A stretch of DNA of 51,147 nt from Paludibacteraceae bacterium (lineage in GTDB: Bacteria; Bacteroidota; Bacteroidia; Bacteroidales; Paludibacteraceae), in the NCBI GenBank assembly GCA_024399615.1, contig JAKSNQ010000005.1, positions 1 to 51,147 of the forward strand. The letters are read 5' to 3'. The position numbers and the translations under genes were made by a program. The notes beneath the pieces are model-generated. The model was not told the origin of the DNA. It saw only the letters and a list, made by a program, of their open reading frames with translations, and ran no database searches. This document shows, piece after piece, positions 24,070 to 45,689 of the stretch (position 1 is the stretch's first letter; every line of letters begins with the position of its first letter).

Positions 24070-24115
24070 TCCGATAGGCAGGATACTATAAATTTTCCGA
24101 TTGGCAGGATACTAT
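24067..24115. repeat. 26-bp tandem duplication across the wecB stop codon
   Basis: Bases 24067-24089 and 24093-24115 match at 22 of 23 positions, separated by AAA, so the period is 26 bp. The second copy encodes the last wecB codons and the first copy lies just past the stop. Because 26 is not a multiple of 3, the stop codon in use (TAG at 24088-24086) lies at the junction. Confidence 0.85.
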
Positions 24116-25189: not shown

Positions 25190-25200
25190 ATCATTATTCT

Positions 25201-26325
25201 TTATTTAAATTTCTTCCAGAAACTATCCTTTCCTTGTCTCGCCAAAGCAACACTATCAGGATAGTGCTCAATGAACCATACCAGAAAAGATGTGTAATCA
25301 ATTTTATCTGCCAGCATGTGCATTCTACGCTTTGCCCACTCGGCTTTCATGGCCTCGGCTCCCATCGCAAGCAGGGAGTCCACCTTGGCGAACATTGCCT
25401 CTGATTCGTCCGGACGAAATCCATAGGTCAATTCATATGTATGTTCTTCCTCCTCCAGATAGTGAATACGCCCCACAAAGGTATTGCATCGTATGGCCGG
25501 TGTGCCCAAGACAGCCGCTTCAGACGTCATGGTCTGGCTGTCGCCTATCAGCATCGTGGCATAGTACATCAACGAGTGAGCTTTCTCCGGACTTACCTTC
25601 AGTTGATACGGTTTGAACTCCTCATCTATGTTACGTTCTGTGGTAATAAACACTTTGCCAATCTTGGACAATTTTTCTACCAATTTCCGTTTATTTTCGA
25701 TAGTTAATCCTACAACTCCGACATCATGGTGAGCCTTAAAGGCATTAAATCGCATTACGAAATATGGTTCCAGAACACGTACATCATCATTCGCCATGAT
25801 TTCGTATCGTACACCAGCATCATCCAAAACAGAAGGATCAGGAGTAAAGCGATTGGGATGCAGATATGCCAACTCGTGGTAAGCCGGATAATATACCAGT
25901 TTTTTTACCACACGAGGTGTGCCTTGTGGCGACAGCACCACTGATGCGAACGGATGAGCATACTTTGCAAAGAGTGGTTCCACCTCATCGTCGTCATCGT
26001 CCAAAATAATACTCTTCATGCGGCACAACTTGCTAACATGCGCCAGGTTGATACTCGACCCAATACCGATGTCTATTCCATGTCGAATGGCAAACCACCA
26101 AATTTTCATGTCGTAGATGATTTGCTCCAATCCCTTGATAAACAATTTATCATTCTTCTCACCTAACTGTTGATAAGGAATTCCATACAGATCCATCAGT
26201 TTCTTGGCCGAGGGGATGTCCTTTACCAGCACGTGAACCTCATGTCCATGTGCTACCAGTTCCTTATAGGCATTGCGCAACAAATGCACATGTGCAGGAT
26301 GATTTATGTCAATGAGTATTTTCAT
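25201..26325 (-). CDS. DUF354-family protein, GT-B-like
   Basis: 374 residues from the ATG at 26325 (MKILIDINHPAHVHLLRN); upstream in-frame codons overlap the FemAB-like gene. The DINHPAHVH start, HGIDIGIGSSINLAHV near residue 75 and LIGDSQTMTSEAAVLGTPAIR near 265 are hallmarks of DUF354, which has the two-domain fold of GT-B glycosyltransferases and UDP-GlcNAc epimerases. The reaction is not established. It sits between the FemAB-like gene (2 nt away) and wecB (11 nt away), so a role in making or transferring the same amino sugar is reasonable. Confidence 0.87.
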   Translation of the reverse strand: MKILIDINHPAHVHLLRNAYKELVAHGHEVHVLVKDIPSAKKLMDLYGIPYQQLGEKNDKLFIKGLEQIIYDMKIWWFAIRHGIDIGIGSSINLAHVSKLCRMKSIILDDDDDEVEPLFAKYAHPFASVVLSPQGTPRVVKKLVYYPAYHELAYLHPNRFTPDPSVLDDAGVRYEIMANDDVRVLEPYFVMRFNAFKAHHDVGVVGLTIENKRKLVEKLSKIGKVFITTERNIDEEFKPYQLKVSPEKAHSLMYYATMLIGDSQTMTSEAAVLGTPAIRCNTFVGRIHYLEEEEHTYELTYGFRPDESEAMFAKVDSLLAMGAEAMKAEWAKRRMHMLADKIDYTSFLVWFIEHYPDSVALARQGKDSFWKKFK

Positions 26326-26327
26326 CG

Positions 26328-27410
26328 TTATTTGATTTTCTTCAATAGTTTTACCCCCAATTCTCCACACATGTACAGAGCCGGTTTGCAGATGTATTTG
26401 TATCGACCATGCTCAACCAATTCTCCTCCAAATCGCGCTTTGAAATCGCGCACCCCATAGGCTTCCTGAGGTGTGCCAGCTCCCATCATATCAAAACGAG
26501 GCAAACCCATCTCGGCTGCATAGCGAATACCAGCATAGGTAGCTACAGACGAAGGGAAGATGGACTTCCACTCGCCATCACGTCCCGCCACAAACCATTC
26601 ATACAGACATCTTCCCTCCTGCATCACACATACGGTACCGCCTATCATCTCCAGTTCGCCGGCCATGTTTTGCAATCCCACCAAGATAAACCGAGCATCT
26701 TTTTGCTCATAGAGTTTTTCAAAGAACGACAATGGGAATAACGGAGTCTTTACTCTGGTGGCATAGAGGTTCTTGAGGATAGCGTAGTATTCTCGCACTT
26801 GCTCAATAGTAGGATGATCTGTCACGACGACGCCATCACGGAAGCTGGTCTTGATATCTCGCACACGATTTTTGCCCATCGTTCCATTCACCACCTTATC
26901 GTATGCAATCTCATTCTTACACAAGTTGTCTGTTGCTGTGTGCATATTCCCGCAAAAGTCGGCAGTCACAATATGGAAATTGTTATGTTCCTCATACACG
27001 AACCCGGCTTTCTCAAATCCACTGCGCCAGCGACTATAGTCATTGAAGTTACGCGTCTCGATATAAATTGCCCCTCCTGATTCGTCAATCATCTTTCTCA
27101 CTTCCGTCATGAGCAGCGTCACACCTTCATTGCTACAGTCGTCCGCCAATGCCGGCCCGCCGATGATGATAGCACGCCGAGTAGTGAATTGCTTGAGTGG
27201 GTTTTGCTCTATCGTAATATAGCCCACACATATACCACGCAAATCAGTCTCGCCACAAATGGCAACCACAAAAGGACAAAACAGTTCCGGCATACTTGCA
27301 AAAAATGCATACGCCTCCGGAGTCTGAAACCAGTTTCCAGTTTCAGCGGTTGCCACCAACTTTGTCCATGCAAAGCGGTCTATTTCGTTTATGTTTGTCA
27401 GTACAGACAT
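26328..27410 (-). CDS. FemAB/GNAT-fold acyltransferase-like protein
   Basis: 360 residues with two GNAT-like halves, the layout of FemAB and 'GNAT_6' proteins. NWFQTPEAYAFFAS at the start is the typical opening; IYIETRNFNDYSRWRSGFEKAG ends the first half; YYAILKNLYATRVKTPLFPL, then CLYEWFVAGRD and RFDMMGAGTPQEAYGVRDFK form the second. FemAB proteins transfer an aminoacyl group to murein precursors; relatives in polysaccharide loci are thought to acylate sugars. The position inside the glycan operon favours glycan decoration. The gap to the GT4 gene is 10 nt. Confidence 0.78.
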   Translation of the reverse strand: MSVLTNINEIDRFAWTKLVATAETGNWFQTPEAYAFFASMPELFCPFVVAICGETDLRGICVGYITIEQNPLKQFTTRRAIIIGGPALADDCSNEGVTLLMTEVRKMIDESGGAIYIETRNFNDYSRWRSGFEKAGFVYEEHNNFHIVTADFCGNMHTATDNLCKNEIAYDKVVNGTMGKNRVRDIKTSFRDGVVVTDHPTIEQVREYYAILKNLYATRVKTPLFPLSFFEKLYEQKDARFILVGLQNMAGELEMIGGTVCVMQEGRCLYEWFVAGRDGEWKSIFPSSVATYAGIRYAAEMGLPRFDMMGAGTPQEAYGVRDFKARFGGELVEHGRYKYICKPALYMCGELGVKLLKKIK

Positions 27411-27420
27411 GATGATTATC

Positions 27421-28413
27421 TTATCTTTTTGTCAGGATATCCCCGTAAATTGCCATCAGTTTCTCAACCACATCTTCATTACGAAGACCTGCCTCCATGA
27501 TTAGTTTTCGGCCTTCTGTGCGTTTACCGAACATAAGTCCCTGCAGCAGCAAGTCTGCCAATTCTTTCGGTTCCCTGCTCTTCGCCACATAACAACCGTT
27601 GAGACCAGCTGTTCGCTCGGCCACATCTCCCACATCGACTGACACAATCGGACAACCACATGCCATGGCCTCCTTTATTACCTGCGGACTGCCTTCGGTC
27701 TTACTAGTCATAAGGATGGCATCACAAGCGTACATCAATGAGGAGACTTCGTCGCGTGAATAGCCTTTCAGTTCCACCAATTGCACTTGTTTCTCATTTC
27801 TTGTTTCTTGTTTCTCATTGAGCAAAGTGACTATTGCCTTCGCCAGCTCCGGATCCTTGACAGCGTTATCGAAAGCCCCAGCAAAGAGTACATGATACCT
27901 GTCTTTTTCTAATACGTGCGATATATCGGGACATTCGGCAGGAGGCTTAGGAAGATCAATACCGCAAGGAATAAGCGATGATCGTGTTTGTATTTTGCAA
28001 GAAGCGTCTTCCAATGCAATGGCCATTGTACGCTTGCTCACAAAGATGTTCCATGATGCCAGGCGCATGGCTATTTTTGAAAAGCGACGGGCATTAGGAT
28101 TATTAATATCGCTACCGTGATATGTTACCACAACGGGTGTAAAACGCGAGGCAAAACAAGCAACGAGGCGCGAGACAAGACAGGCGGCGAGACCAGAAAG
28201 ACCATAATGAGCATGCACGACATCGATATGGTCCCGACGAATGACACGACGAATGGCGGGGATAGCACGCAGGTAGCCCATTAGCCCCTTTCCGACTATG
28301 CCAAAATATTGCACATGACATCCTATTGCTTGCAGCGCATTGGCTTGCTCCACAATAAACGGTGCAAATTGTCCACCATGGGTATTATTGGAACCGACGA
28401 TTAATATTCTCAT
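27421..28413 (-). CDS. family 4 glycosyltransferase
   Basis: 330 residues. GT-B fold: MRILIVGSNNTHGGQFAPF at the start, VVHAHYGLSGLAA near residue 65, VVTYHGSDINN near 95, and the donor-binding EGSPQVIKEAMACGCPIVSVD near 255 with the GT4 Glu pair (E of EGSP and E of KEA). It transfers a sugar from a nucleotide donor during glycan assembly at the inner membrane. Residues near 199-210 (NEKQETRNEKQ) are encoded by a five-unit heptamer array, so slippage there would shift the frame. Its start overlaps the stop of the acetyltransferase gene by 4 nt. Confidence 0.88.
   Translation of the reverse strand: MRILIVGSNNTHGGQFAPFIVEQANALQAIGCHVQYFGIVGKGLMGYLRAIPAIRRVIRRDHIDVVHAHYGLSGLAACLVSRLVACFASRFTPVVVTYHGSDINNPNARRFSKIAMRLASWNIFVSKRTMAIALEDASCKIQTRSSLIPCGIDLPKPPAECPDISHVLEKDRYHVLFAGAFDNAVKDPELAKAIVTLLNEKQETRNEKQVQLVELKGYSRDEVSSLMYACDAILMTSKTEGSPQVIKEAMACGCPIVSVDVGDVAERTAGLNGCYVAKSREPKELADLLLQGLMFGKRTEGRKLIMEAGLRNEDVVEKLMAIYGDILTKR
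27785..27819 (-). repeat. coding heptamer array in the GT4 gene
   Basis: On the coding strand, five consecutive 7-mers: AATGAGA, AACAAGA, AACAAGA, AATGAGA, AACAAGT. The shared form is AAYRAGA. The array lies in the middle of the GT4 gene, in frame as read. Since 7 is not a multiple of 3, gain or loss of one unit would cause a frameshift. Confidence 0.85.
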
Positions 28414-28934
28414 TTTCGCATTCTTATAACTCGTGCCGGATTGCCGGCAACAACTGCGTTATCCGGCACATCATGAGTAACCACGGCACCTGCACCTATG
28501 ATACTATGTGCGCCAATACGTTGGCAACCCGGCAACACGATAACACGTGTACCAATCCATACATCCTCGCATAGTTCAAGTGGAGTCTTCGGCAAATCGC
28601 TCCCTGAGCCAATCGGCACATCAGGATTAGAGAAATCATGCCCTCCACCCTGAAACAACACATCTTCGCCCATCATTAGTGGGCCGTGAATGGTCAGGAT
28701 GCGGTTGTGGCAGGTAAAGTTTTTCCCTATGCCACAATCTCCAACCACATGAATGTCTGCACCAGAACCAACGTAAGCACCTTGCTCCAGATTAACGAAT
28801 CCGTTGCACTCTGCAAACATGCCTTTCGCACAAAGATAGCGAAGCCATTGAGCGATTTTTCCCAATCCTGGCATCGTGGACTTGGGAAGATGCTTCGCCA
28901 AGCCATAGTATATAATATTCCAAAATACTCTCAT
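28410..28934 (-). CDS. hexapeptide-repeat O-acetyltransferase
   Basis: 174 residues. The left-handed beta-helix repeat pattern begins near residue 55 (AYVGSGADIHV, GIGKNFTC), with the family active-site His in GGGHDFSNPD near residue 96. The C-terminal part ELCEDVWIGTRVIVLPG, then IGAGAVVTHDVPDNAVVAGNPARVI is the standard end of maltose/galactoside acetyltransferase-like enzymes. It probably O-acetylates a sugar of the surface glycan from acetyl-CoA. Its stop overlaps the GT4 start. Its ATG lies 6 nt after the second (TAA) stop of the Wzy-like frame. Confidence 0.88.
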   Translation of the reverse strand: MRVFWNIIYYGLAKHLPKSTMPGLGKIAQWLRYLCAKGMFAECNGFVNLEQGAYVGSGADIHVVGDCGIGKNFTCHNRILTIHGPLMMGEDVLFQGGGHDFSNPDVPIGSGSDLPKTPLELCEDVWIGTRVIVLPGCQRIGAHSIIGAGAVVTHDVPDNAVVAGNPARVIRMRK

Positions 28935-28940
28935 ATCGTA

Positions 28941-29042
28941 TTATAATCCTCGTCCTTTCATTTTGAACCATTGCCAACCAACGCAGGCGACAAAAATGAA
29001 TAGCACCCAATAGCTGTACCATTTTTTGGGGCGTTTATCCTA
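28941..29042 (-). other. in-frame continuation of the Wzy-like gene past an amber codon
   Basis: The codon at 29042-29040 is TAG (codon 460). In the same frame 32 more sense codons follow up to TAA at 28943-28941. They encode DKRPKKWYSYW, a membrane-helix-like stretch, then WQWFKMKGRGL. As I recall, Bacteroidales O-antigen-polymerase-like proteins often end in W-x-W-F-K-x-x-G-R-G, so this looks like the natural C-terminus separated from the gene by one stop. Confidence 0.7.
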
Positions 29043-30419
29043 CAAAAAGCGGCTCATGCCATATGCAGCAAACATAAGCATGAACGGCATAATCGGCATG
29101 TGGAAACGTTCCGATTGGGCGAAATTACTGAACACAAGCACAACCAAATAGCCGGCATAGTAGGCTTCAGAGAGCACATAACGCCTCCAATCGCCAGAGA
29201 ACAGCAGGCAGAATATGGCAAAAACTACAAAACCGGACAGTATATTCTTTACAAAATTTCCGCCATGAATCATTCGTTGGTTTTCCTGATCAGGTGTAGC
29301 GACCATGGTAGGAAAAGGAATGGTCGTGATGAGCGGAGCAAAGACCGCCGCACCCGCATATTTGGCAAATTGATTGGCATTACCTTGCGAATCGGTTCTG
29401 CCTGCACGCCATTCCATGTTCCTTCGTTGCTCAGCACGTATATCCTGATTGGTTATCTCTCGTACTTCCTGTTCCAATCGTCCCCCCATCATTGTGAGAA
29501 GCAGACCACCAGCCAAAAGAATCATGATAATTCGTTTTCCCCATGACACAATCCGAGTGGAACTAAGCGTAAGTGCACAACCTAATGCCAGAATAACTAC
29601 GGCTCCCAGCACGGTTCGGAAAGTGAACAAGGCCAACACGCACAGCAGCATCGGCAGTATTTTCCACACATTGAATTTCCGTAATCGCATAACCTGGTCT
29701 GCCTGATCGATGGCCGCCACGGCCAGAAAAACCATCTCGACCTCCTTCAGGTGCAGGCCGCAATAGTATATCATGTTAGGCATCAGCATACAAAAAATGC
29801 CAGTGAGACGCCCTATGCCTTCTCCAAATTGGCGAGAGGCCAGATGGTACATCATGACCACAGTCCACGTGCTCCACACGCATTTCAGGATACGAGTTAT
29901 CAGGAGGTTGGTTCCCAAGAGCGTGTATTGCAATGCCAAATAAGTGACATATCCTCGGTCTGACAATTCGTAGCTACCCCATCGATACATGGTGCTGATT
30001 GCATCCCAAATTTCGTTCCCATGATTTACCAGATCAACCACATATTCTCCGGCAGCATGGTAAGCCACCACATCACCCGGATGCCACTCGAAATGTTCTC
30101 CCGTTGCCCAATAATAGAACCAATAGGAGAAAAGCGTATATATCAGTCGTATCGAAAAAGATGTGACAATCAAACGCTTGGTAAAAGTCTTGACAGTCAG
30201 TCGTGCCCAACGCTTGCTCAGATAATTGCTATAATAAAAGAATCCCACTACAGAAACGACACCCACCAGCATGAGATACCACTCTATGGCATAGCTCATG
30301 TACATGCCAGTAGCTACTATCAGCGCAGCCACATAGCAATACAGGGCCTGAGTGCTCATCCATTTGGGCACATAGTTACCTTGCGGTTGAAGTCTGTTTA
30401 TCGGTTGTGCAATATTCAT
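29040..30419 (-). CDS. polytopic membrane protein, O-antigen polymerase-like (possibly amber-truncated)
   Basis: 459 residues up to a TAG codon. About ten hydrophobic helices are visible, with large loops after the third (YYWATGEHFEWHPGDVVAYH) and around residue 325 (basic and Gln/Asn rich). I recognise no definite glycosyltransferase motif; the position among glycosyltransferases and the loop pattern suggest a Wzy-type polymerase or other membrane step in glycan export. The conserved-looking tail is encoded in frame past the stop (see 28941-29042), so the gene may be freshly truncated, read through, or affected by a sequence error. It follows the GT32 gene by 6 nt. Confidence 0.72.
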   Translation of the reverse strand: MNIAQPINRLQPQGNYVPKWMSTQALYCYVAALIVATGMYMSYAIEWYLMLVGVVSVVGFFYYSNYLSKRWARLTVKTFTKRLIVTSFSIRLIYTLFSYWFYYWATGEHFEWHPGDVVAYHAAGEYVVDLVNHGNEIWDAISTMYRWGSYELSDRGYVTYLALQYTLLGTNLLITRILKCVWSTWTVVMMYHLASRQFGEGIGRLTGIFCMLMPNMIYYCGLHLKEVEMVFLAVAAIDQADQVMRLRKFNVWKILPMLLCVLALFTFRTVLGAVVILALGCALTLSSTRIVSWGKRIIMILLAGGLLLTMMGGRLEQEVREITNQDIRAEQRRNMEWRAGRTDSQGNANQFAKYAGAAVFAPLITTIPFPTMVATPDQENQRMIHGGNFVKNILSGFVVFAIFCLLFSGDWRRYVLSEAYYAGYLVVLVFSNFAQSERFHMPIMPFMLMFAAYGMSRFL

Positions 30420-30425
30420 CTTTCG

Positions 30426-31154
30426 TTAGCCAAACATCTTTCGTTTGATTTTAATTAGTTTTGTGCGGATTTGAGGCGTGAACAAACGCAGTAGGCATGC
30501 TTTCCACTCGCAACCACTGCTCCAGGAGTCTAACCCACGATGTTCACAATACGTATTCTCAGTCCGAATATCCTCTCCGGTTGTCAATACCGGGCAAAAA
30601 TATGCCACCGGGTAAATCTTCACCCACTGGGATTTGTGCACATCCGAAGCGGCAAAATAAGACACATTGGTTGTCAGGTCGTATTGGCCGTCGGGTCGGA
30701 TAAAGGTACGAGAATCATATGCGTGCAGCATTGCTGAAACCCATTCCCCATGTGCTACTGTTGCCATCACGCCCAACATAGGCGGCTCTCGCTTACTCCC
30801 TTCCCGTCCCACAAAAGCCACATTGGTCAAAAGAGGTGCGAACGACTTATACACCTCAAAGTCCACATCCATATATAGGCCTCCTTCACGCTCCAACGCC
30901 CAAAGGCGTACATAGTCGCTCACGAAAGCATACTTGCCAGCAGCATAAGCTTCACGCACATAGAGAGGCCATACGGCCAAAACGTCCTCAAAAGAAGCCA
31001 TACCGGCCGTTTCTGCTATCGTGTTTTCGTTCCATAGACGATAGCTCCATTCGGGTTCCGGCATAAACTTGCGCCACGAAGCCAGACATTGTTGCACCAA
31101 TTCCGGAAACGGGTGGCCGCCTATCCAGACATAATGTATTTTCTTCGGAATCAT
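30426..31154 (-). CDS. family 32 glycosyltransferase (OCH1-like, DXD)
   Basis: 242 residues from the ATG at 31154 (MIPKKIHYVWIGGHPFPELV); the start overlaps the GT2 stop by 4 nt (ATGA), and the longer frame lies inside GT2. GT32 features: IPKKIHYVWIGG, then AFVSDYVRLWALEREGGLYMD, with the DXD metal site in YMDVDFEV near residue 103. It transfers a hexose in capsule or O-antigen synthesis; sugar unknown. The C-terminal end is basic (RTKLIKIKRKMFG), consistent with peripheral membrane contact. Confidence 0.88.
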   Translation of the reverse strand: MIPKKIHYVWIGGHPFPELVQQCLASWRKFMPEPEWSYRLWNENTIAETAGMASFEDVLAVWPLYVREAYAAGKYAFVSDYVRLWALEREGGLYMDVDFEVYKSFAPLLTNVAFVGREGSKREPPMLGVMATVAHGEWVSAMLHAYDSRTFIRPDGQYDLTTNVSYFAASDVHKSQWVKIYPVAYFCPVLTTGEDIRTENTYCEHRGLDSWSSGCEWKACLLRLFTPQIRTKLIKIKRKMFG

Positions 31155-32152
31155 GACAGATGCAGTATTTTGACGAGTGTTTGTTTCAGGACAGAGCCTG
31201 TTTGATAAATTAAATGTTTGCATCGCATCCGCCACATAGGAGCCCGATAAAAGCGCACCACGGAGTCAGGTTGCGCCGACCAGTCCACTTTCCTGAGTTG
31301 CTCAGCAGCAGCCTCATGATAGCCTTTGTCAAGCCAATAGTCCCGCAACCCCTCTACACGCAGTTTATCCAGCAATTGCTTCCATGCCACAGCCTGAGGA
31401 TGGTTAACAGCAGATAAATCGGATTGTGCAATCATGCACTCTATCTCCTCCAGATGCCAGAGCATGTTGTGTTCGGGCGCATGCAAGTTATGTGTTGCCC
31501 GTTGGCCAGAAGGGATGTCATTGTTGTAGTACGCCAACGGTTTGTCCAAAAAGGCGACCGGATGGCGAAGAGCAATCTTACTCCACAATAAGAAGTCTTC
31601 TCCCAGTCGTATACCTTCAGAAAAACCGCCAGATGCCTCATAGACCGAACGACGCATCATCGTGGCACCCGTCCAAACAGGCATACCTGTTCCTCGGTAA
31701 TAAGAGAGGGGATAATCAATATATGCACCCTCGATATAAGCCGGATTAGTCACCCCCACACGAGTCTTGCCCGGCTTGTAGTAGATATAATTGGCAGCCC
31801 ACAGACCAGCATCCGGTGTCTTTTCCGCAAAAGCAACCATTTGTTCCAGATAAGCCGACTCCCACCAGTCATCCGCATCCAAGAAAGTCACCAACTCTCC
31901 ACAAGCGGCCTTAACGCCATTGTTTCGAGCCACGGCCACACCGGAGTTGGGCTGAGAGATCAGTCGAAAACGCGAACAGTCCTCCTCCTTCGCCAGCCAT
32001 TCCGACACCACCTCTGCACTCGCGTCGGTACTGCCATCATTAATAATGATGCATTCCCAATCGACAAACGATTGCGAGGCAATGCTCTGCAGACAATGCA
32101 CCACATATTGGGCCTTGTTATAGAGAGGGATGATGATGCTTACTTTAGGCAT
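31151..32152 (-). CDS. family 2 glycosyltransferase
   Basis: 333 residues. GT-A motifs: VSIIIPLYNKAQYV at the start, IIINDGSTDASAEVV near residue 35, NSGVAVARNNGVKAA near 70 and the metal site FLDADDWW near 90; GGFSEGIRLGEDFLLW near 170 is the acceptor-side ED motif. Sugar specificity cannot be read. It overlaps the upstream GT2 gene by 8 nt and the GT32 gene by 4 nt, so the three are translated as one tight block. Confidence 0.92.
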   Translation of the reverse strand: MPKVSIIIPLYNKAQYVVHCLQSIASQSFVDWECIIINDGSTDASAEVVSEWLAKEEDCSRFRLISQPNSGVAVARNNGVKAACGELVTFLDADDWWESAYLEQMVAFAEKTPDAGLWAANYIYYKPGKTRVGVTNPAYIEGAYIDYPLSYYRGTGMPVWTGATMMRRSVYEASGGFSEGIRLGEDFLLWSKIALRHPVAFLDKPLAYYNNDIPSGQRATHNLHAPEHNMLWHLEEIECMIAQSDLSAVNHPQAVAWKQLLDKLRVEGLRDYWLDKGYHEAAAEQLRKVDWSAQPDSVVRFYRAPMWRMRCKHLIYQTGSVLKQTLVKILHLS

Positions 32153-33008
32153 TTTTCTTGGGTTTTCTGAATATTTTATGATCCCATCGATTCAATATAC
32201 GCTCCATCAGCCATACGGCCTTATAAGCCCACGGATGCTTCCTCAAGTTATCCATCTGCTCCATATCGAATGCATGTGCATCGTAATCAGCAAGCACAGC
32301 CGCAGGCAGCAGTTCTTCCACGACCCTGCGCCGCTCTTCGTTTCTTAGGCTCATATTTCTTTCCGATACACCAGTTGTGTCAAATATCGTCATATCAATA
32401 TCCACATAGACAGGTTTAACATGCCCAAGAGCGATGACTTGCATAAACCATTTCCAATCGGACACAATCTTGAGGGTCTCGTCATAGAGTCCATATTGGT
32501 CAAACAAGGAACGCCTGATCCAGCAACAATCGTGGTTCATGGTGCTGGAATAGTATTGTCTCAACGAGAAAGCAACTTCCCCACTCTTTCCCTCCATAAT
32601 ACCATCTGCACGTTGTCGAATCATGTTGCCATAGACAATTTCTGCCGCCTCGCCCTGATGAATAAGCGACTGAACGAACGATGTCATTCGTGCCAGCACA
32701 TCATCCGAAGCAAACCTGTCGCCAGCATTGAGTATCTCAATATAGTCGCCCGAGGCCATGCGAATGCCCTTATTCATCGCATTATAAATACCATCGTCAG
32801 GTTCGCTAACCCATTTTACTACACGAGAGGACAAGGCGCACTGTTCGTATTGGCAAATCATCTCTACCGATGCATCCTTGCTGCCGCCATCCACGATAAT
32901 ATGCTCCAACTCCAGTCCTTGGGAAATTGACTGCCGAGCGACACTATCCAACGTCTTACCTAAGCCTATCGAGTCATTAAAATTGATTGTTATTATACTG
33001 AGTTTCAT
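32145..33008 (-). CDS. family 2 glycosyltransferase, first gene of the glycan operon
   Basis: 287 residues. Motifs: LSIITINFNDSIGLGKTLDS at the start, HIIVDGGSKDASVEMI near residue 37, YNAMNKGIRMASGDYIEILNAGDRF near 80 (NAGD at the metal site) and CCWIRRSLFDQYGLYDETLK near 160. It resembles colanic-acid and PGL-type GT2 enzymes. A Bacteroidetes promoter lies 79 nt upstream, making this the first gene of the operon that runs to wecB. Confidence 0.9.
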   Translation of the reverse strand: MKLSIITINFNDSIGLGKTLDSVARQSISQGLELEHIIVDGGSKDASVEMICQYEQCALSSRVVKWVSEPDDGIYNAMNKGIRMASGDYIEILNAGDRFASDDVLARMTSFVQSLIHQGEAAEIVYGNMIRQRADGIMEGKSGEVAFSLRQYYSSTMNHDCCWIRRSLFDQYGLYDETLKIVSDWKWFMQVIALGHVKPVYVDIDMTIFDTTGVSERNMSLRNEERRRVVEELLPAAVLADYDAHAFDMEQMDNLRKHPWAYKAVWLMERILNRWDHKIFRKPKKNA

Positions 33009-37034: not shown

Positions 37035-37065
37035 TTGCACAAATCAAACAAATGCAGTAATTTTG
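37035..37065 (+). promoter_or_regulatory. promoter of the giant repeat protein gene
   Basis: TTG at 37035-37037, a 20-nt spacer, then TAATTTTG at 37058-37065. Transcription should begin near 37072, so any start codon before that (such as the in-frame TTG at 37035) is excluded, which supports a start at 37089-37101. Confidence 0.78.
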
Positions 37066-37100
37066 CAGCCTCAAAAAAAACAAATCACATGATATATATG

Positions 37101-40100
37101 ATGAAACAAATCAGTAAGATAATCAAGATGGCCGCAGGCGTACTCTGCATGGTCAGTAGTCCACTCTGGGCACAGTATCAACTACCCGACCCCGGTTTTG
37201 AAGATTGGGGAGGTCCGGCTTTCGATGGAAATGTACAACCTCGTTATTGGAACTACTCCAACGTTGAGCAGTTGGGTATCAAGTTCAATTTTGCACAACG
37301 AGAAACCGGCCACAGCGGCAATTACGCAATGAAAGTGCAAGGTCAGCGTCTCGAAGTGATGGGCATCGGCGAGACCTCACCAGGTTATATAGCGTTGGGA
37401 CATCCCTGGGCCTACGTATCCTCCCTCAGCGCCATCAACAAAGCCACAGCCGGCACGTATGGTGGAATCGCATGGACACATCGACCAGATACCATGACCG
37501 TATGGATCAAACGTACGGGTAACAATACGGCCGATGAAAACTATAACATCGTCTTCTACTCGTGGGTAGGTCGCGCCGAAGGATATAGCTACAAGGCAAA
37601 AGACGGTTCTTGTACCGCCGTGCCATCCACCTATATCTATGACGGCGAACCGGATATACGAATCACCAATGATGCCAACGAATGCACCACTGTCACGCCA
37701 GGTCAGCAGGTGGCAGAAGGATGGATATACGAGCGCGCCAACTATGCCAATTGGACCAAGATCAAGATTCCTATTCTATATCTGAACAACAATATTCCAG
37801 AGAAATGCAATGTCATCTTCTCCGCTTCCAATTACCCAAATTTCGGCGCCACTACAGGCCTTTACGCAGGGAATACGCTTATCGTGGATGATGTGGAACT
37901 CATCTACTCGTCACGCATACAAAAGTTGTACATAGGCGGAAGGGAATGGAAGGGATTTGATCCGAACAACACTGGTATACAGACCTATTCCTTGGGACAA
38001 GGGGCAACAAGCATCCCTCAGATTGAAGCCCGCCGTGGTGCCGGAACCATCACAAATGTGCACAACCAGACCGCCACTTTCGCAGGTCGTGTATTGTCCG
38101 GTTCGGAAATTAGCATCACAAACGGAACCGTGGACGGAACCCCAACCGTCATCACAGTCTTCTCAGAAGATGGTTCGTCCTCCACACAATACCAGATTCA
38201 GTTCGTCAGCCAGCAGTCCAACAACCCTCGCCTCGCCGGCATACAGGTGGATGGGGTTCCCATCAGCGGTTTTAACCCCTACCTCACCAACTACACGGTC
38301 CAAATACCTTTCGGCACAACAACGACGCCAGTCATCACCGTTGATAAACAGGAAGACAGCCAGAATGTTCAGATTACGCAAGCCGGTTCACTCAATGGCA
38401 CAGCGACAATAGTCGTGACAGCTGCCGATGGCAGTACCACACTGACCTACACGGTACATTTTGTGCAGCAACAACTGACCGACAACACCCTGCAGGACAT
38501 CCAGGTGAATGGGTCATCGATCCCCGGCTTCATCAGCACAAAAACGACATACACTATCGAACTGCCATTGGGCACAACCAGTGCACCCACGGTGACGCCT
38601 ATATCACGATACCCTGCCGGACAACAGACGATTCAGATTGTGCAAAACACGTTGGACGTCTCGAGCGGCACCGGACAATGTAAGATCAGCGTTTCGGCCC
38701 CCGGTGCGCCAACAACGCGTACCTATACGCTCAACTATCGTGTGACGGCCTCGACCTATTCCTTTCTCAGCGACCTTCGCATCGATGGCAGCACTATCGC
38801 GAATTTTGAATACGACCGACTGACATATTATGTCAATCTGCCCATTGGCACCACTTCGTTACCGACTATTGCATGGACAGCAGGCGACCCCTATCAAACC
38901 ATCACAACAGATGCTTCGGGCATCACCGGTGCTGAGGGAACATTTAAGATTCAGGTGCAGGCAGCTTCCGGAGCGCAGTCCATCTACCGCATCATCTTCA
39001 GTTTGGAGAAATCCAGCAACAACTACCTTTCTGCCATTCTCATTGACGGACAGTTATTGCCATCGTTCTCGCCCGATCAAACAAGCTATAGTTACGAGCT
39101 ACCCATCGGCACCACCACACTCCCCGAGATAACCTGGACTTCAGATGACCCCTATCAGACCATCACACGTTTAGACGGCGGCATCAATGGTACCACTCGT
39201 ATCACGGTCAAAGCCGGCGATGGATCCACACGAGTGTACACCATCACCTTCTCCGTGGCCAAAGCTTCAGACGCAACTCTTCGAATGATCTATCTGGACG
39301 GAGAGCCACTTGACAACTTCAGCAGCTCCGTTCTTGAGTACTCCATACTCCTGCCCCAAGGCACCACTACGCTCCCCGCCATCACCTATCTCCAGCACGA
39401 CGAATATCAGACAATAACTGTCCGTTCCGGTGGCGTCAATGGCGATTATCGTATCACCGTCCGCCCTCAATCAGGTGCATCACAGACTTATACACTCCAT
39501 TTCTCGGTGGCCGTTTCTGCCAATACGAGCCTAAACATGATTTACCTCGATGGCATAGCCATACCTGATTTCGACCCCACAGTCTTAACTTATTCCGATA
39601 CGCTTCAAGCCGGCACCTCTACGCTCCCTGTTGTCACGTTCGACAAGGCCGAATCATCTCAACGAGTAATCCCAGAGCAGACAGGCAATACGATTCGCCT
39701 GATTGTCACAGCCGAGAATGGCGCAACCGCCACCTATACCATCACCTTCGTTCAACTCAAGTCTGCCAATGCGTTCTTGAACATGATTTATCTGAACGGA
39801 GAGCGACTTCCCGGCTTCGATCCCGAGCAACTCAACTATTCGCTTTTCGTGGCGGATGAGGCCCTCGTTCCGGCGATTTCCGTGGACAAGAACATCGGAC
39901 AACACGTAGTCATTGCCCATCCTGCCGGATACGGCACAGCACAGATTACCGTTACTCCGGAGCAGGGAGGTGCCAACATCTATCAGATTACGTTCCGCTC
40001 GCCGTCAGACACCATCACGCCCGTCATTCCGGACCTTTCCGAGAATGTCTTTCTGTCTGATATTCAACTCAATGGGCAGTCACTTGAAACCTTCTCTCCT

Positions 40101-43100
40101 GCCGTACACGAATACACCATCACCTTGGGAGCTGACGAATCTTTGCCGGTCATCACCTGCAGCAAAGGCGAGTCAAAGCAGAGTATGGTAGTCGGTCAAA
40201 GTCGAGGCATGCAAAGCATCATCACCGTTCTCGCCGAGAATGGTACTACTGCAACCTATACCCTCAATTTCGTCCGCACCCCTCACACCGATGCGGCACT
40301 GCAGGACCTCAAACTTGACAACGTAACCATCGATGATTTCCGAACCGACCGCTACGACTACCACGTCACGCTGCCGGTGGGACTATCAGACCATAAGAAC
40401 ATCACCGCAGTCACACGAAGTCCTTACGCCTCACTCACTATCTCTGAGAACGACACGGCGCAATTTGTGGATGTATATGCAGAAGATGGCACGCATCTCA
40501 CCTACACGGTCCACTACCATTTCGTCCCTTCCACCAATGCCCTTTTAAGCAATGTGCTCGTAGATGGCGTTGCTCTCAGCGGCTTCCAAAGCAACAAGTA
40601 TCAATACACACTTTCGCTCCCGTGGCATGCCACTTCACTTCCGGAAATCACCCCTGTACTCGCCGATTCTAACGCGCTGGAATACATCATCCAATATGGT
40701 AATATCAGCACTCCGACCACCATCACCACCCTTGCACAGGATTCCATCACATCTGTCACTTACGAGTTTCATTTCCAGATGCCAAAATCCTCTAATGCAA
40801 CTCCAGAGAGCATCGATGTAGAAGGCGTTAGCGGCTATTCGTTCGACCCCGATCAGCATGAGTACTACCTCACGCTCCCTTATGGCAGCACCACCACACC
40901 TGACCTATATGCGACCAAAAGTGAGCAAGAGCAGGAGATTGTTGTTACCCGCCGTGGCATATGTGATCCTTCTGAGGTGATCATCACCGCAGAGGATGGC
41001 ACACAAAGCACGTATCGCTTCTACTACAGCGTGGACATACCCTCTTTTGAGAACGTACTCCTTCAGATTGTTCATTCCACGGGAGTCATTGATTTAGCGG
41101 CCAATCCTTCCCAAACGGATTACACCGTCAGTCTCCCACATGGAAGCACTTCGTTCAACGTCCTTTCCGTCGTCAAGAATTATCCCGAGCAGAACGTCAT
41201 TATTGCCAATGGTGGAATAGCACGGCCAACCCAAGTGACAGTATTATCCGGTTTCAACGGCATACCAGACCGCACCTACACCATCACCCCGGAAGTTCAG
41301 TTTGACGCACCAACAGCCCTCAGCAGCCTTACCGTCAACGGAGTCTCCGTACCGGATTTTTCACCTCAACAGCACCATTACGTCATGGCCGTCAATGCTG
41401 CACCTGCGGTCTCGGCTACCCTCTACAACAGCAGTTCCACTTTGGATGAGACGCTCACGACCAAACATTGGGAAGGCACAGTGGAAGATAATCTTGGCAA
41501 TAGCGAAACATATCATATTTGGTTTTACTACCCGGGCGATATTTCTTTCGACACCGATTTTGAAGACTGGTACGATGTCAGCAATGCGCTCGCCGTCGTA
41601 GATGGCGGTGTGCCTATGGGATGGCATAGTCCTATCGACGCTACCACCACCGGTGACAAGGGTTCTTACCACCCGGAAGAATCGCTCGACCACTCGACGG
41701 ATGCCACCAGCGGCACCACCTCAGCGAACCTGAAAACGGCATACCTGCTCACCTCTGCAGAAGCCATGCCGGGCGTTCTTTCGCTGTCACCGCAAACCGT
41801 CACTGTTGGTGCCTATTATATCGTTGGACACACGGCTTCGACCCTCTCTTTCGGTGAGCCTATCACATTCCGAAACACTCCCGATAGTGTTGCACTTGAC
41901 TACAAGGCACTTGAGAACAACAAAGTGACAGCATGGCACTGGTTGTGGAAGGCCAACAACCAAACATCGTTTGATTACACTGGGTCCTACAACACCAAGA
42001 ATGTATGGCAAACGGTCAGCAAAAAGCTTACTTATGCGCAAGGCTTTGTGCCAACTACGCTCGACATTCACATCTGCCCGGCCCAGTCCGAAACGCTCTC
42101 CGACTATTATGTTGGCACCAGCGGTGCACAAAAAGCCAACCGCTACACGTCCAGCATGCTCGTGGATAACCTCCGCTTCTTCTACAATTCCCGAATCAGC
42201 CAACTCAGCGTCAATGGTACTACAGCCACGCGCAACGGAAACAATTTCTCGTTTACACTCACCAATCCTGAGAACACGAGCACACCACAAATTTCCATCG
42301 TAGGTGAAGTAGAAGATCAGGCTCCTTTCATCACATGGAGCGATGAGGCAAACGGAGTCCGCACAGCTGCCATTCGCAATTTCGCAGAGGATGGGTCTTA
42401 CACAGATTATACACTAACTATCACCCGTCCACTCTCCGCCGAGGATTCGGTTCATTACGAACTGACCAACGGCGACCTCAGTATTTGGCCGCTCAGCTCC
42501 CATCAGACCTATTCGGTAGAGAAGAACAATTACCAATATCGCATCCTCGTTACCGCCGAGAATGGTGCGCACCGCACCTTCACTATCCCACGCGGGAACG
42601 CATCCAACGACTGCGAGACTTTTGAGTTCAGCGACACTCTCCATGCCGAGCCATTCATTGACCACATCGAGCCGCAGACCATAAAAGAGACCTTCTTGCC
42701 ACAGCTCTCTTCGTCAGCCGACCTGCAAGGTATCCTCATCAATGGCACAGCACTCGCAGAGTTCAATGCGCTCAATGCCAACTACACCATCGTGTCGGAT
42801 CAGCCACTGGCAGTAAAGCCAATCGTCTCGGAAGGACAGACGATAGCCGTAACGCATGCGCTGAGTGGACAAGAGCACACTTTCAGCATCACCGTCACCT
42901 CGCAAGATGGAGTCAATACCGCCAACTACACCATCCTCCAGCAACCTGCTCCGGTCACGCTCCATTCGGCCGAACTGACTGGCATACGAATCAACGGACA
43001 GATGTGGCAGGATTTTGCGCCGAACATCCATCAATACGATATCACCTTGGACGTGGATTACCCCAATCTGATTGCCCAGATGCCGGATGTCAATTACATC

Positions 43101-45689
43101 ACCGCCGATTCGCTTCAGCAGGTGGAAATCACGATTGCGCGTCAGGGAACTGACCATATTCTCACCTGTAATGTCTTTGCCGCAGACGAGAGTGACGATG
43201 CACAATATATCATCCGATTCATCTCGCATCAGGTCAATCAACCGCTGCCGGTAGAGCCTTCTCATGAAGCCTTGCTCAGCGGCATCATCCTCAACGGAGA
43301 ACCGCTCGTTAACTTCTTGTCCGAACAGATGAGCTATACCATCACCTTGCCGATGAAGCAGACCGAACTACCTGATATCCAGCTCCTTTTGGGACATCCG
43401 CGACAGCGCGTCACTTTCGCTCGCAACGAGACTACATGGCAGAAAACGGTGACTATCTCCGTCACCGCAGAAGATGGCATCACGCAAGCCGAATACACAC
43501 TCCTTTTCAACCTCACGCCTTCCGACATCACTTCGCTGCAGATGATTTATGCCGATGGCCAGCAGCTCGCCAACTTCCATCCTGACCAACCAGACTACTC
43601 TTTCACATTGGCGTCAGGAACAACTTCTCTGCCTATCCTCACCTTCACCAAGGCCGAGGAAATGCAGACCGTAACCGTCACCACCGACACGCTCTCTACC
43701 TTCCCGCTCAGTGTCCTCACCCGTTTCTTCGTCACAGCAGAAAACGGTATCTCAACAGCCACCTACACGGTTAACTACACCGTGGCCCTCAGCACCATCG
43801 ACCATCTTCTGATGATCTATGCCGATGGCGAACCATTGGACGATTTCGCCCAGGATGTGCTTTCCTATCACATCAACCTCCCCGTCGGAACACGCTCGTT
43901 CCCACATCTTACATGGGAGCAAGCCGAGCCGCACCAGACAGTGGCTGTCAATACCCTCATCTATAACGATTGGGCGCAAACTGTCGCACTTACCGTCACC
44001 GCCGAGGATGGCACCACTTCACGCACTTATACCGTCCGTTACGACATTCTCCGCTCTTCGGTTACCACACTCAACATGATTTGGATGAACGACGAACCGC
44101 TGGAATCGTTCGCACCGGAGAACTACTCTTATTCAATCCTTCTCCCGGTGGGCACCACTACCCTTCCTGCTATCTCTTGGACACCGGGTGACTCCTACCA
44201 AACCATCACCTCTGACACACTGCCAATCACCAACCATCATGGCCAGTTCACCATTTCCGTCACAGCTGAGGATGGCTCTTCCGCTACCTACACACTGCTC
44301 TTCGATGTGGAGTTATCGCAAATATCCTCCCTTGAGGGAATCTACGTGGATGGTGTGGCATTGGCCGATTTTGACAAAGAGATATACAACTATTCGCTAC
44401 AACTTCCGCATGGCACCACCACTCTCCCGATGGTGACCTATACGCTCACCGAGGATGCCGAGAGTATCCGTATTGACACACTCGCTATCGAAGGCGAACC
44501 GCTGCCGGCGCTCATGTTTACCGTTACGGCAGAAGACAATGTCCACCTGTCGGTTTATACGCTTCACTTCACCATTGAGCCTTCTCATCTGGCCGATCTG
44601 CAGATGATTTTCCTCAATGGAGACTCACTCTCCGGATTTGCACCGGATATGGATGCATACACAGTAGCTCTGCCATATGGACAGTGGATAATGCCGGACA
44701 TCACATGGACGACTTCAGATGACGAACAGACGGTGGAACTCATCATCGTGGATAGTCCGGAGGACAAACACGCCGAGTTGCGCGTCACAGCCGGGGACCA
44801 ACTCACCCAAACCATCTACACACTTATCTTCATCGAGATGAAGTCCGACAACGCTTACCTGGCAGACCTCCGCCTCTTCGGTACTACGATCACCGGTTTC
44901 CATCGCGACACGATGCTATACACCTGCCCCGCTCGATTGGAGAACCTGGCGCATGCTACCGACCTCAGCGCAACTACCGAAGATCCGAATGCACAACTGA
45001 TAATCAGCGAAATGGAGAACCACACCCTCACTGTGCTGGTCACCGCACCCGATGAACAGACTACGCGCTTGTATGTCGTGGAGCAACCGCTGATTCTCAA
45101 CAGCAACAATCGACTGCAAATGATTTATCTGGACGGTGTGGAGTTGCGCAATTTCCATCCTGACACCTGCAACTACACCTACCTGTTGCCGGCCGGTACA
45201 CTCAATGCACCGGAAGTCAGCGCCGTGGCCGAAGACGAGAAAGCGGTAGTGGAATATTCGGCTGTAGCAGTAGAGGATACGACACGTATCTACTGCACCG
45301 CAGAGAATGGCGACACACGCATCTACACCATCTTTTTCCACCAAACCGAGAGCAATCCGGGACAGACGGCCACCATTCAGGACGTGTTGTTCATGCACGT
45401 GGATGGCACCATGACCTATCGCGCAATATCGCTCCGAACAGGCGTCATACTGGCCATATATGACATGGACGGTCATCTCATAATGATGCAGTCGGTACCT
45501 GTTGTGAATCCTAATGACGTGGTCATTGACATCGATGAGAATGGCAACGAATATATCGACGAAGTCATGCCCGAAGCACAAGGTGTCGATTTCGAAGCAC
45601 AGCCCGGGGTGCTTTACTTCTATGTCTTCTCGCACAGTACCGACAACTCACGTTTGGACAAAGGTGGCAAGTTCATGATAGTCAAATGA
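37101..45689 (+). CDS. giant secreted protein with two PCMD-like domains and about 26 cadherin-like beta-sandwich repeats
   Basis: 2862 residues from the ATG at 37101 (ATGs at 37089 and 37098 are also possible). A signal peptide (IIKMAAGVLCMVSSPLWAQ) leads into a jelly-roll domain, residues about 25-270, resembling the PCMD family (starts LPDPGFEDWGG, ends VDDVELIYSS). Next come about 14 repeats of 80-90 residues (about 271-1475) of the cadherin-like beta-sandwich type (PF12733-like): LxxIxxDGxxLxxF, Y-T-x-x-L-P-x-G-T-T-x-L-P, then VTAEDGxxxxYTxxF. A second PCMD-like domain (about 1480-1695; starts SFDTDFEDWYD, ends VDNLRFFYNS) is followed by about 12 repeats (1698-2755). The end (VLYFYVFSHSTDN...GGKFMIVK) resembles a type IX sorting domain. 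No catalytic motif is visible; a surface or fibre-like binding role is inference. It is a single gene with its own promoter and terminator. Confidence 0.9.
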   Translation: MKQISKIIKMAAGVLCMVSSPLWAQYQLPDPGFEDWGGPAFDGNVQPRYWNYSNVEQLGIKFNFAQRETGHSGNYAMKVQGQRLEVMGIGETSPGYIALGHPWAYVSSLSAINKATAGTYGGIAWTHRPDTMTVWIKRTGNNTADENYNIVFYSWVGRAEGYSYKAKDGSCTAVPSTYIYDGEPDIRITNDANECTTVTPGQQVAEGWIYERANYANWTKIKIPILYLNNNIPEKCNVIFSASNYPNFGATTGLYAGNTLIVDDVELIYSSRIQKLYIGGREWKGFDPNNTGIQTYSLGQGATSIPQIEARRGAGTITNVHNQTATFAGRVLSGSEISITNGTVDGTPTVITVFSEDGSSSTQYQIQFVSQQSNNPRLAGIQVDGVPISGFNPYLTNYTVQIPFGTTTTPVITVDKQEDSQNVQITQAGSLNGTATIVVTAADGSTTLTYTVHFVQQQLTDNTLQDIQVNGSSIPGFISTKTTYTIELPLGTTSAPTVTPISRYPAGQQTIQIVQNTLDVSSGTGQCKISVSAPGAPTTRTYTLNYRVTASTYSFLSDLRIDGSTIANFEYDRLTYYVNLPIGTTSLPTIAWTAGDPYQTITTDASGITGAEGTFKIQVQAASGAQSIYRIIFSLEKSSNNYLSAILIDGQLLPSFSPDQTSYSYELPIGTTTLPEITWTSDDPYQTITRLDGGINGTTRITVKAGDGSTRVYTITFSVAKASDATLRMIYLDGEPLDNFSSSVLEYSILLPQGTTTLPAITYLQHDEYQTITVRSGGVNGDYRITVRPQSGASQTYTLHFSVAVSANTSLNMIYLDGIAIPDFDPTVLTYSDTLQAGTSTLPVVTFDKAESSQRVIPEQTGNTIRLIVTAENGATATYTITFVQLKSANAFLNMIYLNGERLPGFDPEQLNYSLFVADEALVPAISVDKNIGQHVVIAHPAGYGTAQITVTPEQGGANIYQITFRSPSDTITPVIPDLSENVFLSDIQLNGQSLETFSPAVHEYTITLGADESLPVITCSKGESKQSMVVGQSRGMQSIITVLAENGTTATYTLNFVRTPHTDAALQDLKLDNVTIDDFRTDRYDYHVTLPVGLSDHKNITAVTRSPYASLTISENDTAQFVDVYAEDGTHLTYTVHYHFVPSTNALLSNVLVDGVALSGFQSNKYQYTLSLPWHATSLPEITPVLADSNALEYIIQYGNISTPTTITTLAQDSITSVTYEFHFQMPKSSNATPESIDVEGVSGYSFDPDQHEYYLTLPYGSTTTPDLYATKSEQEQEIVVTRRGICDPSEVIITAEDGTQSTYRFYYSVDIPSFENVLLQIVHSTGVIDLAANPSQTDYTVSLPHGSTSFNVLSVVKNYPEQNVIIANGGIARPTQVTVLSGFNGIPDRTYTITPEVQFDAPTALSSLTVNGVSVPDFSPQQHHYVMAVNAAPAVSATLYNSSSTLDETLTTKHWEGTVEDNLGNSETYHIWFYYPGDISFDTDFEDWYDVSNALAVVDGGVPMGWHSPIDATTTGDKGSYHPEESLDHSTDATSGTTSANLKTAYLLTSAEAMPGVLSLSPQTVTVGAYYIVGHTASTLSFGEPITFRNTPDSVALDYKALENNKVTAWHWLWKANNQTSFDYTGSYNTKNVWQTVSKKLTYAQGFVPTTLDIHICPAQSETLSDYYVGTSGAQKANRYTSSMLVDNLRFFYNSRISQLSVNGTTATRNGNNFSFTLTNPENTSTPQISIVGEVEDQAPFITWSDEANGVRTAAIRNFAEDGSYTDYTLTITRPLSAEDSVHYELTNGDLSIWPLSSHQTYSVEKNNYQYRILVTAENGAHRTFTIPRGNASNDCETFEFSDTLHAEPFIDHIEPQTIKETFLPQLSSSADLQGILINGTALAEFNALNANYTIVSDQPLAVKPIVSEGQTIAVTHALSGQEHTFSITVTSQDGVNTANYTILQQPAPVTLHSAELTGIRINGQMWQDFAPNIHQYDITLDVDYPNLIAQMPDVNYITADSLQQVEITIARQGTDHILTCNVFAADESDDAQYIIRFISHQVNQPLPVEPSHEALLSGIILNGEPLVNFLSEQMSYTITLPMKQTELPDIQLLLGHPRQRVTFARNETTWQKTVTISVTAEDGITQAEYTLLFNLTPSDITSLQMIYADGQQLANFHPDQPDYSFTLASGTTSLPILTFTKAEEMQTVTVTTDTLSTFPLSVLTRFFVTAENGISTATYTVNYTVALSTIDHLLMIYADGEPLDDFAQDVLSYHINLPVGTRSFPHLTWEQAEPHQTVAVNTLIYNDWAQTVALTVTAEDGTTSRTYTVRYDILRSSVTTLNMIWMNDEPLESFAPENYSYSILLPVGTTTLPAISWTPGDSYQTITSDTLPITNHHGQFTISVTAEDGSSATYTLLFDVELSQISSLEGIYVDGVALADFDKEIYNYSLQLPHGTTTLPMVTYTLTEDAESIRIDTLAIEGEPLPALMFTVTAEDNVHLSVYTLHFTIEPSHLADLQMIFLNGDSLSGFAPDMDAYTVALPYGQWIMPDITWTTSDDEQTVELIIVDSPEDKHAELRVTAGDQLTQTIYTLIFIEMKSDNAYLADLRLFGTTITGFHRDTMLYTCPARLENLAHATDLSATTEDPNAQLIISEMENHTLTVLVTAPDEQTTRLYVVEQPLILNSNNRLQMIYLDGVELRNFHPDTCNYTYLLPAGTLNAPEVSAVAEDEKAVVEYSAVAVEDTTRIYCTAENGDTRIYTIFFHQTESNPGQTATIQDVLFMHVDGTMTYRAISLRTGVILAIYDMDGHLIMMQSVPVVNPNDVVIDIDENGNEYIDEVMPEAQGVDFEAQPGVLYFYVFSHSTDNSRLDKGGKFMIVK

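Follow-up and report, generated by a model that had tools for sequence, protein, structure and literature searches.

Several kinds of surface protein resemble the one that we describe here. In the streptococcal antigen I/II proteins (SpaP, SspB, and BspA), a variable central domain lies between two repeat regions. As described in PMC7732690, the intertwined A and P regions form a stalk that raises the variable V-domain more than 50 nm off the cell, the V-domain has a putative carbohydrate pocket, and the N- and C-terminal domains of SpaP interact at the base. SprB and RemA, from gliding Bacteroidota, are very large secreted surface proteins from genomes that also encode SprA and PorV (PMC10202324). 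Bap from Acinetobacter contains long arrays of Ig-like modules of 80-110 residues (PMC4647330), and another giant protein has been described with a long helix that folds back in some models (PMC12863079).

A giant repeat adhesin is, by itself, ordinary. Here we describe a family of giant proteins from Paludibacteraceae in which two repeat arms of matched length surround a variable central domain, which is not ordinary. This feature was missed by the original prediction, which was made from the DNA sequence of one member, and is new here.

The giant gene and its product

The window that we analyzed is a stretch of 51,147 nucleotides from a Paludibacteraceae bacterium (contig JAKSNQ010000005.1). 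An open reading frame at 37035 to 45689 (+ strand) has no internal stops and encodes 2,862 residues, counted from the ATG at 37101. Translation most likely starts at this ATG or at one of the in-frame ATGs at 37089 and 37098. The TTG at 37035, which is the first codon of the listed reading frame, is the -33 box of a promoter. This promoter, TTG-N20-TAATTTTG (37035 to 37065, + strand), follows the Bacteroidetes-type consensus and would give the gene its own transcription unit. Of 79 relatives, 68 carry the motif ahead of the giant gene, as compared to 1.5% of shuffled upstream regions.

The original prediction described one giant gene with about 26 repeats, interrupted once by a second jelly-roll domain, and our analysis agrees. 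On the + strand, the features of the protein are, in order, a Sec signal peptide that is clear by eye (residues 1-24, 37101 to 37172; from inspection and from the relatives, cleavage is probably before QYQLPD); the conserved PCMD-like domain J1 (residues 25-271, 37173 to 37913); arm 1, with 14 repeats (R1-R14, residues 272-1475, 37914 to 41525); J2, a fast-evolving PCMD-like domain that breaks the array and is the proposed tip (residues 1476-1697, 41526 to 42191); arm 2, with 12 repeats (R15-R26, residues 1698-2757, 42192 to 45371); and a C-terminal domain, which is the proposed signal for export and anchoring (residues 2758-2862 and the stop codon, 45372 to 45689). The mature protein is about 311 kDa and is acidic (computed pI of 4.4).

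An iterated profile identified 26 repeats at residues 272-2746, of which 25 are near full length and one, at 1799-1829, is partial. The repeats belong to PF12733 (cadherin-like beta sandwiches), as had been suggested, with a score of 76.6 bits versus a gathering cutoff of 24.2. The calcium motifs of true cadherins are DRE and DxNDN; both are absent from the giant protein, which contains only eight DxD sites. Domain family searches of the whole protein did not identify any catalytic domain family.

J1 and J2 resemble PCMD domains

J1 and J2 share motifs near their starts (FEDW, at residues 33 and 1487) and at their ends (VDDVELIYSS at 262 and VDNLRFFYNS at 1688), and each is followed directly by a repeat (with IQKL at 273 or ISQL at 1699), all as originally reported. 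As single sequences, the two domains are weakly alike (blastp, E = 0.014): their local alignment score was reached by 28 of 500 shuffles and their global score by none of 500. J1 scores 31.1 and 29.8 bits against PF13201 (PCMD), which is over the Pfam gathering cutoff of 28, and PF13201 is matched by J1 in only 8 of 75 relatives (E of 0.1). At the gathering score, the window's J2 does not match any Pfam family, including PCMD, and PCMD is absent from the 25 Pfam families listed for 65 members of J2.

Comparisons of family profiles resolved the matter. We built a PCMD profile from 24 domains, leaving out one other domain (L187) and the PCMD domain of the window's own genome (L001). J1 and J2 matched each other (98.0%, E = 1.6e-13, 193 columns), and both J1 (99.4%, E = 2.4e-21) and J2 (97.3%, E = 2.7e-11) matched the PCMD profile; as a control, repeats 1-2 gave a probability of 1.6%. 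From these profiles, J1 and J2 are homologous members of the PCMD superfamily, which supports the original prediction of two PCMD-like domains.

The profile similarity of J1 to J2 is no stronger than that of J1 to other PCMD domains. In a translated set of PCMD domains, a FEDW start and a VDDVEL end are general hallmarks, so sharing them is no sign of a recent duplication.

Against solved structures, the J2 profile gave nothing convincing (best E of 0.019), and a profile from J1 to R2 matched only by its repeat part, in a beta-galactosidase (8q2h). The Protein Data Bank entries that are related to PCMD (4het, 4jrl, 3hbz, and 3s30) are labelled as putative or hypothetical glycoside hydrolases. 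Although profile comparison places J1 and J2 in the same superfamily as these proteins, the arrangement differs: alignment ranges place about 110-120 other N-terminal residues before the PCMD part of the solved chains, whereas in the giant protein, the PCMD domain comes first, and it occurs twice, between long repeat arrays.

The two arms have matched lengths

We compared 106 complete proteins of 1,608-5,621 amino acids, including the window's. These were proteins with both J1 and J2 detected (J2 more than 300 amino acids after J1, at over 60 bits) and with the 3' end of the frame closed; near-duplicates were removed, and one of 107 rows, a protein without the C-terminal domain (L059), was dropped. 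J2 lies near the middle of these proteins. The two arms, measured from J1 to J2 and from J2 to the C-terminal domain, differ by at most 85 amino acids, or one repeat length, in 98 of the 106 proteins, and by at most 170 amino acids in 104.

The match holds across a wide range of sizes. Arm lengths range from 503 and 520 amino acids (in the protein of 1,608 amino acids) to 2513 and 2513 (in the protein of 5,621 amino acids), with intermediates of 940/931, about 1277/1301, 1624/1621, and 2038/2130. In terms of repeats, the classes are approximately 6+6, 7+7, 9+9, 10+9, 11+11, 15+15, 19+19, 24+24, and 28+28. We segmented 14 proteins into repeats: six have exactly 15+15, and the others have 12-15 per arm. 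One genome encodes adjacent paralogues of 1,610 and 3,110 amino acids, and each is matched (503/520 and 1256/1268). Phylogenetic contrasts of the arm lengths, using a tree of J1+R1, gave a correlation of 0.98 and a slope of 0.996. The probability of J2 being so central by chance is 6e-7 over 12 length classes, which are our own cuts on total length and are treated as independent.

Some proteins deviate. The window's arms are among the less equal (1204 versus 1057 amino acids, a difference of 147), and three other proteins have differences of 156 (L223), 171 (L070), and 345 amino acids (L170). The 10+9 class consists of 12 proteins, with a difference of about 65 amino acids.

Our searches of one open-access library for this architecture did not show it. 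To our knowledge, antigen I/II is the only other case in which matched arms flank a variable domain at the center.

J1 is conserved and J2 is variable

Across 53 proteins, the mean pairwise identity is 68% for J1 and 62% for R1, and it falls along arm 1 to 36% for R14. It is 33% for J2, 34-48% for arm 2 (38-39% for R25-R26), and 40% for the C-terminal domain. Over all 106 proteins, the mean identity is 29% for J2 versus 57% for J1, and the correlation between them is only 0.25. In particular, of 638 pairs of proteins whose J1 domains are at least 70% identical, 335 have J2 domains that are less than 30% identical. When J2 is clustered at 45% identity, 3 of the 12 largest clusters shown cross genera (the cluster label "g1/named" pools genomes from the window's genus with named records of undetermined genus), and the J2 tree conflicts in places with the J1 tree. 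J2 falls into distinct types, old ones that were kept or exchanged, while J1 is conserved.

No support for recent copying between the arms

The original prediction proposed that some repeats were copied recently across the two halves. The motif LxMIYx[DN]G does recur in repeats 6-8, 20, 21, and 26 (positions 727, 811, 893, 2146, 2236, and 2672). However, the best pair of repeats (R7 and R20) is 52% identical, and the motif holds the same positions in many relatives: of 53, it is kept in 22 at position 811, 30 at 893, 12 at 2146, and 25 at 2236, but in only 3 at 2672. Repeats 1-8 mostly retain one-to-one positions, even in another genus. On the other side, some pairs of repeats still share short DNA matches that score higher than all of 300 codon-shuffled controls, and one such pair, R4 and R22, spans the two halves (score of 48 versus a control maximum of 32).

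It was also proposed that a module of one jelly-roll domain and its repeats was duplicated. However, when six 15+15 proteins were combined into position profiles, the halves had no in-register similarity (permutation test, P = 0.94), and the best offset between them is not significant (P = 0.17). A single branch (100/100) separates 23 J1 from 23 J2 sequences drawn from all length classes, with a warning from the program about long branches. In a tree with other PCMD rows, J2 forms one group (96/80), and J1 and its short paralogues form another (100/100); this tree used the wrong strand for one PCMD row (L198), and it excluded other rows from the minus strand because they contained stops. We considered whether the module was duplicated anew in each length class, but J2 is not closest to its own J1 in the tree. 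Because there is no register and just one strongly supported branch between J1 and J2, any duplication would be a single old event whose register was lost. The deep split and the lack of in-register similarity also argue that the match between the arms is maintained rather than inherited. J2 could derive either from J1 or from another PCMD protein.

Homologues with only one module were found. There are 14 short paralogues of 360-390 amino acids (L037-L050), with a signal peptide, J1, and one repeat but no C-terminal domain, and a protein of 711 amino acids (L157) with J1, four repeats, and the C-terminal domain, in which J2 was not found. In two genomes (G231 and G244), a short paralogue with J1 and one repeat is directly upstream of the giant gene. 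Another protein, of 1,352 amino acids (L145:9911-13966), has J1 and one repeat; the rest of its sequence is unrelated and, by eye, resembles a beta-helix and leucine-rich repeats. At a locus from another genus (L154), an in-frame stop splits a giant gene into pieces of 401 and 2,642 amino acids, adjoining an intact giant gene.

Mirrored similarity and paired indels

In the position profiles of the six 15+15 proteins, the two arms are most similar precisely where their positions mirror each other (P = 0.0005, or P = 0.0014 after removing how typical each repeat is). Part of the signal arises because repeats near J2 are less typical in both arms. Across the 12 length classes, the mean z score for mirrored similarity was 1.22 before this correction, with 10 of 12 classes positive, and 0.54 after it, with 8 of 12 positive (t = 1.47). 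The corrected z score was at or below zero in the 24+24, 6+6, 11+11, and 19+19 classes, and in only 5 of the 12 did zero shift score better than every other shift. The mirror pattern appears to give modest support for paired arms.

Indels are also paired, at comparable heights in the two arms. Relative to 15+15 proteins, 19+19 proteins have added repeats in arm 1 (bins 6, 8, and 10, counted from the base) and in arm 2 (bins 6 and 8), and the window's protein has lost about one repeat in bin 8 of each arm. These indels fall toward the center of each arm, a region in which mirrored placement is hard to tell from in-register placement. For the 28+28 protein, the indels of the two arms do not line up well.

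Export and anchoring

Type IX secretion machinery is present in the genus. Among 41 genomes from the window's genus, 39 encode SprA and all 41 encode PorV-family proteins; the window's own genome has both. In one genome, a PorV-family gene is about 0.5 kb from the gene for a J1 protein, on the opposite strand (G031:C66:5878-7318).

The window's own genome contains seven matches to TIGR04183 over the cutoff, all in other proteins, and the C-terminal domain of the window's giant protein does not match either TIGR04183 or PF18962 (type A sorting domain). Of 57 family members, 10 have weak matches to TIGR04183 (best E of 2.7e-5) and 2 have matches to PF18962. By profile comparison, the C-terminal domain matches a type A profile over only 22 columns (50%, E = 1.6e-4), with a score of 28.3 as compared to at most 16.7 in 40 column shuffles. 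Thus, the C-terminal domain seems to resemble the type A sorting domains of type IX secretion, distantly. Two positions near its end, G99 and K100, show conservation of 90% or more, and the domain is single-copy in 28 of 31 genomes. As described in PMC10202324, cells cleave type A cargo and attach it to surface polysaccharide, and lysines near the end of the cargo matter for secretion.

A proposed folded-back stalk and its alternatives

The relatives' arms are matched at any length, which points to a protein that is probably a folded-back stalk and holds a variable tip off the cell. More specifically, we propose a hairpin that is secreted by the type IX system, in which the two Ig-like arms lie next to each other, with J2 at the tip and J1 near the anchored C-terminus; we give this reading about an even chance. 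Besides the matched arms, it draws on the single split between J1 and J2, the mirror pattern, the paired indels, the variable J2 and conserved J1, and the type IX machinery of the genus. Sec would carry out the first step of export and the type IX secretion system the second, and the C-terminal domain would anchor the protein. Arm 1 would extend outward from J1, the conserved base of the stalk; the chain would turn at J2, and arm 2 would return antiparallel beside arm 1, so that the C-terminal domain ends close to J1. J2, as the variable tip, would probably function in ligand binding, whether to a glycan, to another bacterium, or to a host surface. If the arms lie side by side, then the gain or loss of repeats in one arm would be tolerated only with a change in the other, which would keep J2 central.

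Several observations count against the hairpin. The window's arms and those of a few other proteins are unequal, the mirror similarity is modest, the position of the indels hardly separates mirrored from in-register pairing, and the match to an export signal is weak. Also, a hairpin predicts that the base of arm 2 (R25-R26) and the C-terminal domain should match J1 in conservation, but they are less conserved.

An alternative that we consider unlikely is a linear giant adhesin with a C-terminal anchor, a spacer of repeats, J1 at the far tip, and J2 partway along the stalk; the two arms would be a relic of a fused duplication. The gradient of conservation, from J1 and R1 down to R14, is what a conserved tip on a free spacer might give, and there are precedents for giant adhesins among type IX cargo, such as SprB (PMC10202324). 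However, a relic cannot hold the arms equal through parallel changes of length in 12 classes, and the arms have no in-register similarity.

Alternatively, two chains could associate, with J2 contacting its own copy and matched arms needed for symmetry. This covers the matched arms, the mirrored similarity, and the paired indels as well as the hairpin does. We nevertheless think it rather unlikely, as it is hard to see how both chains could have a C-terminal surface anchor when one of the anchored ends would then be distant from the membrane, and rapid evolution of J2 is unexpected for a domain that touches its own copy.

Equal spacing of J1 and J2 would also be needed if parallel molecules in a fiber or lattice were offset by half their length, so that J1 sits beside the next J2. 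Such an assembly accounts for the matched arms and, if the protein coats the cell, for one copy per genome, and surface-layer proteins are known type IX cargo (PMC10202324). It would favor in-register over mirrored similarity, though, and our tests of register were negative or null; J1 is also much more conserved than J2, which is odd for lattice partners. We consider it quite improbable.

A recent module duplication or gene fusion accompanied by recent copying of repeats, along the lines originally proposed, would fit with the homology of J1 and J2 and with the existence of the single-module homologue and the short paralogues, but it is very unlikely given that J1 and J2 split once and deeply, that the halves are out of register, that no pair of repeats exceeds 52% identity, and that J1 is no more similar to J2 than to other PCMD domains. 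A secreted glycan-active enzyme with a long tail of repeats, as suggested by the labels of the PCMD structures and by the repeats' match to domains of a beta-galactosidase, has very little chance of being correct, as those labels are only putative and the protein has no catalytic domain family that we could find.

Occurrence and gene neighborhood

J1 was matched in all 36 of the genomes from the same genus that we searched and in 2 of 24 genomes from other families. In a draw of 200 genomes from across the family, 74 (from 13 of 33 genera) had matches to J1, and one genome from the window's genus had none. Across the taxonomic order, 13 of 393 genomes had a match to a profile of J1+R1, and three of these are from the window's genus (including its own genome). 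Two of the proteins from other families have a J1-like domain and, by eye, one cadherin-like repeat, with other domains after it.

Relatives are encoded in 304 stretches of named genome records. The best 80 of these 304 are titled Paludibacteraceae, Candidatus Colicola, Paludibacter, or uncultured Bacteroidales or Bacteroidia, and many are from the guts of ruminants or horses; the nearest named relatives are uncultured Paludibacteraceae from the guts of herbivores.

The gene neighborhood did not provide a clue to function, because the relatives' giant genes have other neighbors. When six neighbors from the window were compared to the loci of 80 relatives (using tblastn), only a TonB receptor was matched, at one locus. 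Among loci L072-L151, 67 have a giant protein of over 2,000 amino acids, and at 36 of these, a divergent gene that by eye is MoxR-ATPase-like is directly upstream, followed by DUF58- and Bat-like genes. The window lacks this MoxR-like gene; in its place, upstream of the giant gene, is an alpha-L-rhamnosidase gene. The window also contains genes for sugar epimerases, glycosyltransferases, and hexapeptide-repeat proteins at 24086 to 33008 (- strand), which is probably a surface polysaccharide cluster.

We also considered a phage origin, but a PHROGs search gave no family for the whole protein, for J1+R1, or for J2. One unannotated, phage-labelled sequence from human feces (MT837172.1, 2505 to 3374) has a weak match to residues 5-284 (22.5% identity, 10% of the query).

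Comparison with known systems

SprB, which carries a type B signal, functions in gliding, while the C-terminal domain of the giant protein is distantly similar to type A, and the description of SprB that we cite does not describe matched arms (PMC10202324). Similarly, the account of Acinetobacter Bap that we cite does not mention a central domain between two matched arms (PMC4647330).

The comparison with antigen I/II is by description, and it concerns how the proteins may work; we do not claim any relation in sequence, and no antigen I/II family was among the domain family matches of the giant protein. The arms of antigen I/II are alanine rich and proline rich, while both arms of the giant protein are cadherin-like beta sandwiches. 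Antigen I/II is anchored by sortase, and the giant protein would be anchored via type IX secretion. Unlike in antigen I/II, the length of the giant protein's arms varies about fivefold.

If the arms do pair, then the family offers a natural series of double-armed protein stalks whose lengths run from about 6+6 to 28+28 repeats. Such a series would allow one to test directly how paired repeat arms evolve and how the reach of a surface binder is set by the cell, and J2 would be the domain to examine for ligands. More broadly, matched arms could be a simple sequence signature for folded-back giant proteins elsewhere. We see the case as evenly balanced for a new surface-stalk architecture, in which one type IX-exported chain of Ig-like repeats forms an antiparallel double arm of adjustable length, equalized by the paired gain and loss of repeats, with a conserved PCMD domain at its base and a quickly diversifying one at its turn, and which arose independently of antigen I/II. 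If this is true, then the plan of antigen I/II arose again, from other parts, in gut Bacteroidota.
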